Part shown: piece after piece, positions 24,226 to 61,130 of the stretch
Numbering within the stretch: the first letter of the stretch is position 1
Layout of the letters: each line of letters begins with the position of its first letter
Assembly: GCA_028876065.1 (NCBI GenBank)
Contig: JAGWTI010000001.1
Location: 1-64,000 of the forward strand
Origin: Nitrospirota bacterium
Lineage (GTDB): Bacteria; Nitrospirota; Nitrospiria; Nitrospirales; Nitrospiraceae
Direction of reading: 5' to 3'
Length of the DNA: 64,000 bases
Notes under the pieces: generated by a model
What the model saw: only the letters and a program-made list of their open reading frames with translations
Database searches by the model: none
What the model was told of the DNA's origin: nothing
Program-made: the position numbers and the translations under genes

Positions 24226-24477
24226 ATGCTAGTCCTGACACGGAAGTTAGGGGAAGGCATCACCATCGGAGACGACATCCGGGTGGTAGTGCTGGAAATG
24301 AAAGCCGGACAGGTCCGGTTGGGGATCGAGGCGCCCAGCGACGTCCAGGTCCATCGCGACGAGGTCTACGCGAAGATTCTCGACGAGAACAAGCAGGCCG
24401 CCAGAGCGCAACCGGCGGCAACCGAGGCGTTGAAACACCTCGGGCGTCCCATACAGGCTGAGGCGAAGCGCGTGTGA
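24226..24477 (+). CDS. csrA: Carbon storage/translational regulator CsrA
   Basis: 83 residues from the ATG at 24226 ([20 protein letters not shown]), with AGGGAGGG upstream. Core strands and the RNA-binding region ([20 protein letters not shown]) are intact; the C-terminus is about 20 residues longer than in E. coli CsrA. With FliW (next gene) it controls flagellin translation; two GGA-rich sites in the fliC leader (59136, 59253) are candidate targets. Confidence 0.95.
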
Positions 24478-24525
24478 GGCCATGCCTTCGAGCTGTGGGC
24501 AGGCGTTACGCCGAACGGAGATGAT

Positions 24526-24966
24526 ATGAAAATCAGCACGAGCCGATTCGGAGAGATCGAATTTCGAGACGAGGTGATGCTCCGGTTCCCATCCGGGATC
24601 ATCGGGTTTCCCCAGTCCACCCGGTACATCATTCTGGACCATGACCGAGAGGCGCCGTTCAAATGGCTGCAGTCGGCGGACGAAGGGGGCCTGGCCTTTG
24701 TGATCATGGACCCGCGCATGTTCAAGCCGGACTACCGGGTCATGCTGGAGCCGGCCGTTCTGGCCGACCTGGGGTCGCCGGCCGACGAGGAGTTGATCCT
24801 GTTCGTACTGCTGACCGTGCCGCCGGGAGACCCGGATCGGATTACGGCCAATTTGCGCGCCCCGGTCGTCGTGCATGAGCCGACCAGGCTGGCCAAGCAA
24901 ATCATCCTGCACGACGACCTGCCCACCCGCTATCCGCTCTTTGCCCAGCCGGTGGCCTGCCCGTAA
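24526..24966 (+). CDS. fliW: Flagellar assembly factor FliW (CsrA antagonist)
   Basis: 146 residues with the FliW pattern: FGEIEFRDEVMLRFPSGIIG, FPQSTRYIILDHDREAPFKW, LQSADEGGLAFVIMDP and a C-terminal part with NLRAPVVVHEPTRLAKQIIL. FliW binds either flagellin or CsrA; free FliW sequesters CsrA and so releases flagellin mRNA. Adjacent to csrA as in many phyla. Transcription converges on the minus-strand gene at 25018. Confidence 0.95.
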   Translation: MKISTSRFGEIEFRDEVMLRFPSGIIGFPQSTRYIILDHDREAPFKWLQSADEGGLAFVIMDPRMFKPDYRVMLEPAVLADLGSPADEELILFVLLTVPPGDPDRITANLRAPVVVHEPTRLAKQIILHDDLPTRYPLFAQPVACP

Positions 24967-56305: not shown

Positions 56306-58963
56306 ATGACGACTTATGAGAAAAACCTCGAGGCACTCGACCTCCGCCATCCGGAACTGGCTGCGTTGCTCGGGACTGACATTTCCATGGACCACATTCA
56401 GGTGGCGTGGGCAAGCAGCGGGGCGGCGAGGCTGCTGGTTACGACGGAATCGGGGGTGCGTGCCGTTCACAATGAGGAGGATCCAGAAGCAGTGGCGGAT
56501 CGGACGGTGGACAAACTGGATCTGGAGTCCGGGGTGACGGTGCTCCTCGGAATGGGGCTTGGTTATCTGGCGAAGGCCCTTGCGGCTCGGCTCAAGCCCG
56601 GTGTGGCTTTGCTGGTCTATGAGGCAGACCCGGGCATCTTTAAAACCGCCCTGCAGCTCCACGACCTGACGGAATTTCTGAGCTCGCCTCGGGTGAAGGT
56701 GCTCGTTGGGCCGGCGGCGCGGTTGGAATCGGAATGCTACCGGTTTCTACTGCTCACCGGCGGAACCGTCCGCGTGGCGCGCGCGGAATCTTCCTTTCGC
56801 TTGGCGCCGGATTTGTACAAGGCTAAGTACGAAAAGGAATTGTTGCCGTTTCTCGAGGGCGCCCTGACGAATATGTTCACGGTGGGGCGGTTCGGTCCTT
56901 TGTTTACCAAGAATCTTTTGGAAGGGATTCCACACATTGCGCTGTCCTCAGGGGTCATCGAACTGCGCGATCTCTTCGCCGGCATTCCGGCCATCCTGGT
57001 CGCGGCAGGCCCCTCGCTGGAAAAGAACGTCTGTCATGTAAAAGAGGCGAAGGGGCGGGCCGTCATTATCTGTGCCGACACGGTGTTGGGCTACCTGCTT
57101 GAACGAGAGATCGTCCCCGACTTCGTCGTCAGCGTGGATGGGCAGACCCGCACCTACGATAAATACGAGAACGTGGACATTCCTCCGGATATTGCGCTCG
57201 TCTATCACCCGGCTTGCAACGACAGTATTTTTAAGCATTTCCCGGGTCCGATGTTCGCCATGTCGGTCGGAATGTTGGCCTACAAGTGGATCGAGCATTG
57301 TTGGCCTGACAAGGGGTCGATCGAGAGCGACACGCAATGCCAGATGCACCTGGGATTCAATCTGGCCGAATGGATGGGATGCAATCCCATCGTCATCGTT
57401 GGCCAGGACCTGTGCTGCACGGATAATCTCATGCACGTTCGAGGCGGGAGTTACCTGACGCCGGAGGAAGAGGCGCAGCATGTGGAAAAGGGGCATCGGA
57501 CGGAGAATATCTTCGGCGAGCCGGTCAGAGCCTATCCGAATTTTTTGATTTACAAGGCGACCTTCGAACGGAAGATTCGCGAGTCCCGCGCGCGCTGTAT
57601 CCATGCTACCGAGGGAGGCCTGAAACTGGAGGGCGCAGAAATCCGCCGTTTAGCCGATGTCGTCGAAGAATATTGCACGCACCGATCCGTCGATGTGCCG
57701 TCCGTCCTCCGACCGCTTCGGGCTCGTACCGGATCGCCGGCCTGGGACGTCCTGATTGAAGAAGTCCAGGGACGGGAAAGGGATCTGTACCGGCTGGAAC
57801 GGGTTTCCACGCGTCTGTGTCGCGTGCTGGAGGAGATCGCCGTCATGCGGAAAGAACAGAACGGCGTGACCAGCGATCTCGAACGACTGACGCAACAGGC
57901 CCAACGGTTGACCGACTTGGTGCCTCGATATGGAAAAGCCTTGGGGCTCATGCAAATGGTGGATTTTGGACTGGAATTGTTCATGTGCCAGGAGGATACG
58001 GGGGCCATCGATCAGATTGAGGATCAGGAGATTCGGCTGGACAGGCAGATCGACCGGGCTCGTCGGTACTACGGGAGTCTGAGGCGACTGACGCCGGCTT
58101 TGCGCGAATATGTGACCCGCCTTCGCAAGCGGGTGGCCGGGTTGCGAGAGCTGGAAAAGCCTTTTGGCGGTCACGGCCATGCAACCGATCTTGCCGTCGA
58201 TCCATCGGTGCGTGCGGAGCGATACGAAGCGCTGGAACTGTTCGCTCAGGCGGCTGCTTGCCTGCCGGATCATCCGACAACCGAGTGTCTGGCCAGCCTT
58301 TCTCTTCGGCTGGCTCTTGCCCTGAATCAGATCGGTCGAGCGCGTTCACTGGTCAACGAAGTGCGCCGCCGTTTCCGGAATAATGGTGCACTCGACGCGT
58401 TGTGCCAACGCGCACAGGACGCCTGGCAGGCGTGGCAAGATCGACGAGAATCGGCGGTGCAATCTATCGTCGACGTCCGCGCAGGAGCGCTGGATGCCGG
58501 CGATTTCTACCTCCGTGTCAAAGAGTATGGGCGGGCGGCATCGGCCTACCGCGAGACGTCGGACAATCCAGCGGTAAGCAAAGAGATACGCGGAGAGGCA
58601 CTTTACCGACTGGCCCGCACGCTGCAACTTCAACATCGAGACGAGCGAGCCGTGGCGGCGTTGGAAGAGGCGCTTGCCGTGGCGCCGGCCGATCCCCGCA
58701 TCTATTTCGAGTTGGGCGTCATAGCATTGGGGCAAGGGCTTGTGGCGCCGGCCGTTCGGTTTTTTCAAAAGGGTGAGGACCTGTCTTTGGGAGAGCCGAC
58801 GTTCAGCGAAGCCGCCGGCGCGGTGCTGCTCGCCGCCGGTGCATCCCATGAGGCGGTCGCATTTTATGAGCGGGCCGTCGAAAAGGAACCGGGCAATACC
58901 GAGTACCTTCGGGGAGTGGCGCGTTGTTACGAGGATGTCTTTGCCTCCGCGCATTCCGCCTAA
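56306..58963 (+). CDS. Motility accessory factor (MAF, DUF115) flagellin glycosyltransferase
   Basis: 885 residues. N-terminal MAF region (LLGMGLGYLAKALAARLKPG), DUF115/MptE-like core (AILVAAGPSLEKN, DFVVSVDGQTRTYDKYENVD, NPIVIVGQDLCCTDNLMHVR), coiled coil (about 490-620) and TPR-like repeats to the end (from about residue 740; EALYRLARTLQLQHRDERAV). MAF proteins transfer nonulosonic acids to flagellin in Campylobacter and others. The gene ends 304 nt before fliC, its likely substrate. Confidence 0.9.
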   Translation: MTTYEKNLEALDLRHPELAALLGTDISMDHIQVAWASSGAARLLVTTESGVRAVHNEEDPEAVADRTVDKLDLESGVTVLLGMGLGYLAKALAARLKPGVALLVYEADPGIFKTALQLHDLTEFLSSPRVKVLVGPAARLESECYRFLLLTGGTVRVARAESSFRLAPDLYKAKYEKELLPFLEGALTNMFTVGRFGPLFTKNLLEGIPHIALSSGVIELRDLFAGIPAILVAAGPSLEKNVCHVKEAKGRAVIICADTVLGYLLEREIVPDFVVSVDGQTRTYDKYENVDIPPDIALVYHPACNDSIFKHFPGPMFAMSVGMLAYKWIEHCWPDKGSIESDTQCQMHLGFNLAEWMGCNPIVIVGQDLCCTDNLMHVRGGSYLTPEEEAQHVEKGHRTENIFGEPVRAYPNFLIYKATFERKIRESRARCIHATEGGLKLEGAEIRRLADVVEEYCTHRSVDVPSVLRPLRARTGSPAWDVLIEEVQGRERDLYRLERVSTRLCRVLEEIAVMRKEQNGVTSDLERLTQQAQRLTDLVPRYGKALGLMQMVDFGLELFMCQEDTGAIDQIEDQEIRLDRQIDRARRYYGSLRRLTPALREYVTRLRKRVAGLRELEKPFGGHGHATDLAVDPSVRAERYEALELFAQAAACLPDHPTTECLASLSLRLALALNQIGRARSLVNEVRRRFRNNGALDALCQRAQDAWQAWQDRRESAVQSIVDVRAGALDAGDFYLRVKEYGRAASAYRETSDNPAVSKEIRGEALYRLARTLQLQHRDERAVAALEEALAVAPADPRIYFELGVIALGQGLVAPAVRFFQKGEDLSLGEPTFSEAAGAVLLAAGASHEAVAFYERAVEKEPGNTEYLRGVARCYEDVFASAHSA

Positions 58964-59055: not shown

Positions 59056-59082
59056 TCAAGTTTTGCGGTGGTGTTCCGATAC
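59056..59082 (+). promoter_or_regulatory. FliA (sigma-28) promoter of fliC
   Basis: TCAAGTTT (59056-59063), 11 nt, TCCGATAC (59075-59082): 7 of 8 and 6 of 8 matches to the enterobacterial consensus TAAAGTTT-N11-GCCGATAA with exact spacing. It predicts a 5' leader of about 180 nt for fliC. Confidence 0.7.
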
Positions 59083-59135
59083 AGTGCTCACGACGGTAGT
59101 CCCACGTATCCGCAAGCTCGGACCAGGCCCTATGA

Positions 59136-59145
59136 AAGGAGGATG
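59136..59145 (+). promoter_or_regulatory. Upstream AAGGAGGATG motif, possible CsrA site
   Basis: AAGGAGGATG at 59136-59145 is identical to the fliC ribosome-site motif at 59253-59262. GGA motifs are CsrA recognition elements; a pair, one on the SD, resembles the hag leader logic of Bacillus. It also serves as SD for the small frame at 59147. Confidence 0.45.
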
Positions 59146-59146
59146 C

Positions 59147-59263
59147 ATGTGCGGCCGTGTTGCAATGCGGACAGCGGGCCACCTGAATCAGATGCAACGA
59201 TGCGGCGGCAAGGAAGCCGACGCGTCGAAGGTCAAACCACATCAGCACGATCAAGGAGGATGA
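59147..59263 (+). CDS. Possible 38-residue leader peptide before fliC
   Basis: ATG 4 nt after AAGGAGG, open for 38 codons with Cys, Met, Gln and His-rich sequence (MCGRVAMRTAGHLNQMQRCG), stop TGA inside the fliC SD region. I recognise no family. It could be a leader for coupled translation or a chance frame. Confidence 0.3.
   Translation: MCGRVAMRTAGHLNQMQRCGGKEADASKVKPHQHDQGG
59253..59262 (+). promoter_or_regulatory. fliC ribosome-binding site and probable CsrA site
   Basis: AAGGAGGATG, 5 nt before the fliC ATG. The GGA core overlaps the ribosome site, as expected for CsrA repression relieved by FliW. Confidence 0.5.
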
Positions 59264-59267
59264 CGAC

Positions 59268-61130
59268 ATGGCACTGTACGTTAATACCAACATCGCGAGC
59301 ATCAATTCCCAACGGAACCTCGGCATTTCTGAAAATTCGTTGAACACAGCCTTGGAGCGACTTTCGTCCGGTCTGCGGATCAACCATGCCGCCGACGACG
59401 CGGCCGGCTTGGCCATTTCGACCAAGCTCGACGCTCAGAGCGCCGGGTTGCAACAGGCGTCACGGAATGCCAACGACGCGATTTCGCTCGCGCAGGTGGC
59501 GGAAGGCTCCCTGAATACTTCTCTGAACATTGTGCAGCGGTTGCGCGCACTGGCGGTCCAAGCGGCATCGGATTCCAATACGTCGTCCGATCGCGCCACG
59601 TTGAATCAGGAGGCCACGCAGTTGACGCAAGAATTGACGCGGTTGGCCAACGCCACACAGTTCAACGGCGGCAACTTGCTGGATGGCTCCTTTACAGGCA
59701 AGTTGTTCCAGGTCGGTTCCAACGCCAATCAGACCCTTTCCTTCTCCCTGGCCGACGCCCGGGCCACGGCTCTCGGAAAGTATACGTCCCAAAGTGTGAC
59801 GATCGGGAGCGGTGCCGCTCAAGGGGTGGCGGGATCCGGGCAATTGACGGCCGGCGTGTTTACCGTCAACGGCACCAACGTGGCGGTAACGTCCGACAGC
59901 AGCGATCAGGTGTCCGTGCTGACGGTCGGCGGCAGCGCTGTGTCGATCGCTGGTACCGCGGGCGTCAATACGGCCAGTCTCGGCGACGTGGTCTCCGCAG
60001 CCAGCCTGACGGTGAACATCAACGGGGTGTCCATCGGCGTCAGCAAGCTGGCGGTCGGAAGCGTCGGTAGCTACACCAGCGTTGGGAGTTTGGCGACGGA
60101 TATCGTCAGCGCCATCAATGCGCAAAACATCACCAACGTGACGGCCCGCGTCGTGAATTCATCCTACGTCGTGCTCGAAGCAGCCAAGGGGACCAACCTG
60201 GCCATCACCGTTTCGGCCGGCGCAATCGGCGCGAGCGCAGTCAACGTGGCCGGCATTTTTGGACTCGCTGCCGGTTTCTTTGGGTCCGGCGCGACGGCCG
60301 TCACCACTTATAACGGACAGTCTTCGGCCATCGCCAAGGCGGCTTCGGTCAACGCCGTCAGCTCAACGACGGGCGTCAATGCGGTGGTCACTTCCACCTC
60401 CGTGGCGTTCTCGAATGCGGTGGGGGCAGGGTCGTTGAACTCCGGCGACTTGATCATCAACGGCACCAATATCGGCGCCGTGACCGTCACGGCCAACGAT
60501 TCGTCGGGCGCATTGGTGGCGGCCATCAACGCCCAAACCGCTACGACCGGCGTGTCGGCGGCAGTGTCCAGCGGCAAGTTGACCTTGACGGCCACCGATG
60601 GACGGAACATCTCCATCGAGGCGGCGTCGAACAACGCCAACGGCGTCAACGTGCAGACCACGATCCTGGGGAACAGCGGCAACCTGACGTTCACGGGAGT
60701 CGACGCGATCGCCCGAGGCGGTCTGACGCTCAATTCCACCAGCAACATTACGATCGGCGGGACCACGACGGACTTTGGGAGCCTCACCCCGACGACCTAC
60801 GTGGCGACCGGTAACCTGAGCACGTTGGATCTGACGACCCAAACCGGCGCGACCAACGCGATCACGCAGTTGGACTCGGCCATCAACTCGCTGAACTCGG
60901 CCCGGTCCACGATCGGCGCCGTGCAGAGTCGGTTGCAGAACGTGATCTCCGCGTTGGACACGGCGTCTCAGAACCAAACGGCGGCGTCTGCCCGAATCAA
61001 GGATGCAGACTTTGCGCTTGAAACGGCGAATTTCACGAAGGCGCAGATTCTGGTGCAGGCCGGTACGGCAATTACGGCCCAGGCGAACAGCAGTGCCAAC
61101 GTGGCGCTGCAGCTCCTGTCAGGGAAGTAA
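59268..61130 (+). CDS. fliC: Flagellin FliC, with large variable domain
   Basis: 620 residues. Conserved D0/D1 N-terminus (ALYVNTNIASINSQRNLGIS, ALERLSSGLRINHAADDAAG) and C-terminus (SRLQNVISALDTASQNQTAA, ENF-like ETANFTKAQILVQAGTAITA). The Ser/Thr/Asn-rich middle (about 170-520) includes flagellin-IN modules (SGDLIINGTNIGAVTVTAND) and offers O-glycosylation sites for the MAF protein. Only one flagellin gene is visible here. Driven by the FliA site at 59056; FlaG and FliD genes follow. Confidence 0.97.
   Translation: MALYVNTNIASINSQRNLGISENSLNTALERLSSGLRINHAADDAAGLAISTKLDAQSAGLQQASRNANDAISLAQVAEGSLNTSLNIVQRLRALAVQAASDSNTSSDRATLNQEATQLTQELTRLANATQFNGGNLLDGSFTGKLFQVGSNANQTLSFSLADARATALGKYTSQSVTIGSGAAQGVAGSGQLTAGVFTVNGTNVAVTSDSSDQVSVLTVGGSAVSIAGTAGVNTASLGDVVSAASLTVNINGVSIGVSKLAVGSVGSYTSVGSLATDIVSAINAQNITNVTARVVNSSYVVLEAAKGTNLAITVSAGAIGASAVNVAGIFGLAAGFFGSGATAVTTYNGQSSAIAKAASVNAVSSTTGVNAVVTSTSVAFSNAVGAGSLNSGDLIINGTNIGAVTVTANDSSGALVAAINAQTATTGVSAAVSSGKLTLTATDGRNISIEAASNNANGVNVQTTILGNSGNLTFTGVDAIARGGLTLNSTSNITIGGTTTDFGSLTPTTYVATGNLSTLDLTTQTGATNAITQLDSAINSLNSARSTIGAVQSRLQNVISALDTASQNQTAASARIKDADFALETANFTKAQILVQAGTAITAQANSSANVALQLLSGK

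Follow-up and report, generated by a model that had tools for sequence, protein, structure and literature searches.

A putative FliW-CsrA switch and a separate 16S-complementary element in the flagellin mRNA leader of Nitrospirota

Described leaders and the Nitrospirota locus

The flagellin gene hag of Bacillus subtilis, like the gene described here, has a sigma-28-type promoter. The hag mRNA carries a CsrA site over its Shine-Dalgarno (SD) sequence, fliW and csrA are neighbours in that genome, and CsrA contains N55, the residue changed in the N55D mutant used to abolish FliW binding (PMC6529632). The flaA leader of Campylobacter jejuni contains one ANGGA hexaloop and, over the ribosome site, a second one, with compensatory base changes among relatives; the loop form CANGGANG is bound with high affinity, and spacings of 18-21 nt are quoted for strong bridging (PMC4894983). 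A different kind of leader element is the STAB-SD of the Bacillus thuringiensis cry3A mRNA, an SD-like, non-initiating complement of the 16S tail near the 5′ end, which acts against RNase J1 (PMC4113751).

We analysed a stretch of 64,000 nucleotides from a Nitrospirota bacterium (GenBank assembly GCA_028876065.1, contig JAGWTI010000001.1, positions 1 to 64,000), referred to below as the window. No 16S rRNA gene is assembled in this genome, but the 16S rRNA of a same-family genome (G030) contains exact target sites of the Nitrospira probe Ntspa662 and the phylum-level probe Ntspa712, both probe names being in use in Nitrospira papers; this relative points to the family Nitrospiraceae, phylum Nitrospirota, for the window. 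Its flagellin gene, fliC (59268..61130, forward strand), encodes a protein of 620 amino acids with matches to PF00669, PF00700 and PF07196. A sigma-28 (FliA) type promoter, TCAAGTTT-N11-TCCGATAC, was assigned by consensus match only at 59056..59083 on the same strand, and is the sole strict match in the whole window. It places the transcription start at about 59089, and thus predicts a fliC leader of about 179 nt with a predicted, unmapped 5′ end; this agrees with an earlier note on this DNA, which had proposed a FliA promoter and about 180 nt of leader. Most relatives have an equivalent promoter in their flagellin leaders. Immediately upstream of fliC lies a gene (56306-58963) whose 885-aa product combines an MptE-like domain with tetratricopeptide repeats; it may be a motility-associated (Maf-like) gene for flagellin modification.

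The earlier note had also placed csrA and fliW in the window, and both were confirmed as adjacent genes on the forward strand: csrA at 24226..24477 (83 aa; PF02599, E 4.6e-25) and fliW at 24526..24966 (146 aa; PF02623, E 1.6e-35), single-copy neighbours lying side by side at 24226-24966. The predicted CsrA has N55 and also L4 and R44, two residues important for RNA binding by E. coli CsrA. Flagellin of the window's type, counted as present at E <= 1e-20, was found in 148 of 236 genomes of the order, and of these 148 genomes 144 have FliW and 140 have CsrA. The 88 flagellin-less genomes, several of which are fragmented assemblies, yielded FliW in 19 cases and CsrA in 21. CsrA closely tracks flagellin and FliW through the order, which suggests that it serves there mainly to control flagellin. 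In the window's own genus, two genomes (G001 and G002, the latter incomplete) gave no match to flagellin, FliW or CsrA, and the three genes appear to have been lost together.

The sigma-28-type promoter, the presence of fliW and csrA in the genome, and an ANGGA hairpin upstream of a GGA that overlaps the SD are all found here. We consider it quite likely that the fliC leader is the RNA component of a feedback switch made up of FliW, CsrA and flagellin, and that an upstream AAAGGAGG motif, referred to as site 1, is a separate 16S-pairing element. The locus resembles hag in its putative CsrA site over the SD, its neighbouring fliW and csrA genes and its N55 (PMC6529632), but it belongs to a different phylum, has csrA before fliW and carries an extra 5′-proximal 16S-complementary element. 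With flaA it shares two ANGGA hexaloops, one over the SD, and compensatory changes (PMC4894983). The flaA leader is 45 nt long with a 21-nt spacing; the leader here measures about 179 nt, has its two GGA 43 nt apart and contains an additional element near the 5′ end. The fliW gene adjoins csrA here but not in Campylobacter.

A covarying hairpin and the fliC Shine-Dalgarno sequence

Leaders upstream of homologous flagellin genes were collected at 57 loci within the order and at 43 further loci of the phylum (n=100). Named bacterial genomes with a flagellin match were distant Gammaproteobacteria and a few others only, and were left out. In most of the 100 leaders the same elements occur in the same order, a sigma-28 promoter, a hairpin with GGA in its loop, and the fliC SD. 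An Rfam scan of eight leader loci gave nothing near the gathering score, and a search of the available literature found no description of it.

The window hairpin, CGATGCG-G-CGGC[AAGGAA]GCCG-A-CGCGTCG (59198..59227, forward strand), is a putative CsrA site, BS1, recognised by covariation and folding. Its hexaloop AAGGAA spans 59210-59215, with the GGA at 59212-59214, and its predicted MFE is -21.0 kcal/mol (z = -3.86). A GGA-loop hairpin individually beats shuffled sequences at p <= 0.05 in 69 of the 100 leaders. The ungapped alignment A1 comprises 33 leaders, almost every one from a different genus. Its stem scored 0.625 for covariation; shuffles gave 0.195 +/- 0.025 (0/500 as high) and controls with slid partners 0.12-0.17. 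All 8 pairs of the 8-pair stem show changes on both sides, and the four fixed positions of the A-N-G-G-A loop (A, G, G, A) are invariant in the 33 leaders. Since these hairpins were chosen by motif and best stem, their share of paired cells is inflated. The covariation and the slid control are less touched by this selection, and the latter, together with the double changes, carries more weight. In one leader (L115, genome G219), the hairpin is kept as ATGCC-ACGAAT-GGCAT, but its loop reads GAA instead of GGA even though the genome has csrA and fliW; this is, as judged from the loop, a natural loss of the predicted upstream CsrA site.

The other putative CsrA site, BS2, lies over the fliC SD, ATC[AAGGAG]GAT (59250..59261, forward strand), and is marked by a conserved C and pairing flanks. 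The SD consensus among the leaders is T-C-A-N-GGAGG-A. A C precedes ANGGA in 58 of 64 non-redundant leaders. Among the window's other SD-like sites, a control set that includes internal starts, 24 of 102 have this C. The flanks around ANGGAG are able to form at least three pairs in 48% of leaders compared with 5% of control positions. The mini-hairpin is marginal by itself (-0.7 kcal/mol). Its C-ANGGAG-G form with flanking pairs is a signature shared with the hairpin at 59198-59227, and the CANGGANG form found here is like that of the good CsrA binder in Campylobacter flaA (PMC4894983). From the GGA of the hairpin loop to the GGA of the SD is 43 nt in the window, a wider spacing than the 18-21 nt of Campylobacter (PMC4894983).

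Stem conservation does not name a ligand, and CsrA binding is predicted only, so that the hairpin and SD might have been conserved for some other RNA-binding protein, or as a plain structure that tunes translation. We regard this as very improbable indeed: an invariant A-N-GGA within a covarying stem is the signature of CsrA, this signature recurs at the SD, and the flagellin gene is found together with csrA and fliW. Two CsrA sites thus remain the preferred reading of the hairpin and SD. The earlier note had likewise suggested a two-site CsrA switch similar to that of hag, in which the fliC SD and an upstream copy of the AAGGAGGATG motif would be the sites. On comparative evidence the two-site switch and the SD as one site are well supported, but the upstream motif as the other is not; the actual second site would be the covarying ANGGAN hairpin at 59198-59227, which had been overlooked.

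The 5′-proximal element and the 38-codon frame

The window contains exactly two copies of the motif AAGGAGGATG (59136-59145 and 59253-59262), which lie 117 nt apart, so that the two copies previously reported, at 59136 and at the fliC ribosome site, are the only ones. Dinucleotide shuffling gave an expectation of 0.10, with two copies in 1 of 100 shuffles, a lenient model because both copies are SD-like. The 38-codon frame described between them (59147..59263, forward strand; no Pfam match) is also present, running from an ATG at 59147 to a TGA at 59261-59263, inside the second copy. The same reading frame is open upstream back to 59003, and its openness is therefore not special.

Since each copy contains a GGA, and since an ATG follows the first by 4 nt and the stop falls within the second, both copies could be CsrA sites and the frame a translated leader peptide coupled to fliC, much as the earlier note had suggested. 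The comparison of leaders makes this highly improbable. The frame is not conserved, and no conserved small reading frame or start codon was found after site 1 among 27 non-redundant leaders: a start codon lies 4-13 nt past site 1 in 7 of the 27, against 10.8 expected, and an ATG occurs there in the window leader only. The window ATG and its frame are thus best read as chance; the frame is, on this comparison, probably not a functional leader peptide, and coupling of its translation to fliC was rejected. In addition, the frame extends open well upstream of its ATG, and site 1 has neither the C-ANGGAN-G form nor the pairing flanks by which the hairpin and the SD are marked. The distance between the motifs varies among relatives, the upstream one lying 83-180 nt from the start codon, so the 117-nt distance, whose conservation the earlier note had offered as a check, is not kept.

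Site 1, GAAAGGAGG (59134..59142, forward strand), was defined by leader comparison as a complement of the 16S tail with no pairing bases at its flanks; its core, AAAGGAGG, begins at 59135. The anti-SD complement is AAAGGAGG for the class Nitrospira and AAAGGAGGU for Thermodesulfovibrionia (PMC10783764). Site 1 is complementary to the 16S rRNA tail over runs of 8-12 nt. Its consensus in the 27 leaders, G-A-A-A-GGAGG-T-G-A, reflects their selection on AAAGGAGG, but the T-G-A extension exceeds that selection and prolongs the complement. Where the fliC SD has C, site 1 has A in 25 of the 27, and its flanks form 0 pairs in 26 of the 27. The two look-alike GGAGG motifs are thus separable by their sequence features into a putative CsrA class and a 16S-pairing class. 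In the 27 leaders the predicted 5′ end is 29 +/- 7 nt away from site 1 (46 nt in the window) and the start codon 117 +/- 23 nt away, so that site 1 appears tied to the 5′ end.

CsrA is able to bind GGA outside hairpins, and multi-site leaders are known among its other targets. Site 1, which contains AAGGA, could accordingly be a third CsrA site in a leader that binds more than one dimer. We think this unlikely, as conservation at site 1 extends beyond the GGA into GTGA, which fits 16S pairing and not CsrA, and as its location follows the 5′ end and it has no flanking stem. That site 1 is a functionless SD-like run of purines, inherited or arisen by chance, would accord with the ordinary frequency of AAAGGAGG (2 in the window, 1.46 expected) and with the many short-flagellin genera that lack it. 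This too seems improbable, given that a 16S-complementary run of at least 8 at p <= 0.05 occurs in 33 of the 100 leaders, some of them not independent, that these come from several classes of the phylum, and that the distance to the 5′ end stays steady.

Many leaders lack site 1 or have a degenerate form of it, and it is absent in several short-flagellin genera. In L005, the one relative of the same genus that has fliC, site 1 is degenerate (AAAGGGGGTG) but the hairpin is good. Of the two motifs whose conservation the earlier note had proposed to check, the one at the fliC SD is conserved; the upstream one is conserved in many relatives but not in L005 and others. Its loss from close relatives, which that note had named as evidence against its proposal, is thus partly seen, in L005 and the short-flagellin genera, while the hairpin and SD persist. 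Flagellins of the order fall into two size classes, of about 615-660 aa and about 284 aa, and within the order site 1 mostly accompanies the long class. In six leaders of one large genus (L019-L022, L025 and L026) the 5′ part has no site 1, and a long conserved fold around GGGGATGTGGCCACATCTCC replaces it. Leaders L146, L148 and L154, from genomes with several flagellin copies, have neither the hairpin nor site 1.

The closest precedent for site 1 is the cry3A STAB-SD, likewise a 16S-tail complement near the 5′ end (PMC4113751), and on these features site 1 is a probable non-initiating ribosome-binding (STAB-SD-like) element. It differs from cry3A in being combined with a putative CsrA switch and, in the window, in being followed by an ATG 4 nt downstream. 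No CCTCC stretch able to sequester site 1 was seen in the window leader. The cry3A element acts against RNase J1 (PMC4113751), whereas none of 21 genomes of the order gave an RNase J (TIGR00649) score over the cut-off, leaving an RNase J-type STAB-SD mechanism unsupported. As RNase J was undetected and RNase E/G is present in the window's genome, the remaining options are protection from a 5′-end-dependent RNase, or ribosome standby.

A model for flagellin control in Nitrospirota

Binding by CsrA and FliW, repression of fliC and what site 1 does are inferred from the elements described above. One CsrA dimer would contact the AAGGAA hexaloop carried by the hairpin at 59198-59227 as well as the AAGGAG mini-loop formed over the SD (59250-59261); bridging the two, it would cover the fliC SD and block initiation. 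While flagellin is under export, free FliW would bind CsrA and the SD would open; when flagellin is backed up, it would take FliW away, and CsrA would repress fliC. Site 1 would most likely hold a 30S subunit without starting translation, and the held subunit would protect the 5′ end of the mRNA or keep a ribosome on standby.

The leader is, by its predicted features, a known flagellin feedback switch, here phylum-wide in Nitrospirota, and the new part is the added 5′ ribosome-binding-like element, whose conservation makes this leader a variant of the FliW-CsrA switch. The FliW-CsrA-flagellin switch would thereby be extended from Bacillus, Campylobacter and Clostridioides to Nitrospirota, on the evidence of base-pair covariation, and the split between a CsrA class and a 16S-pairing class of motif makes point mutations directly testable. 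As a tentative proposal, to which we give slightly less than even chances, Nitrospirota flagellin mRNAs may pair a CsrA switch with a 5′-proximal, non-initiating ribosome-binding element that keeps the repressed mRNA stable or pre-loaded. If this is true, a stabiliser principle of RNase J bacteria would be in use in an order without detectable RNase J.
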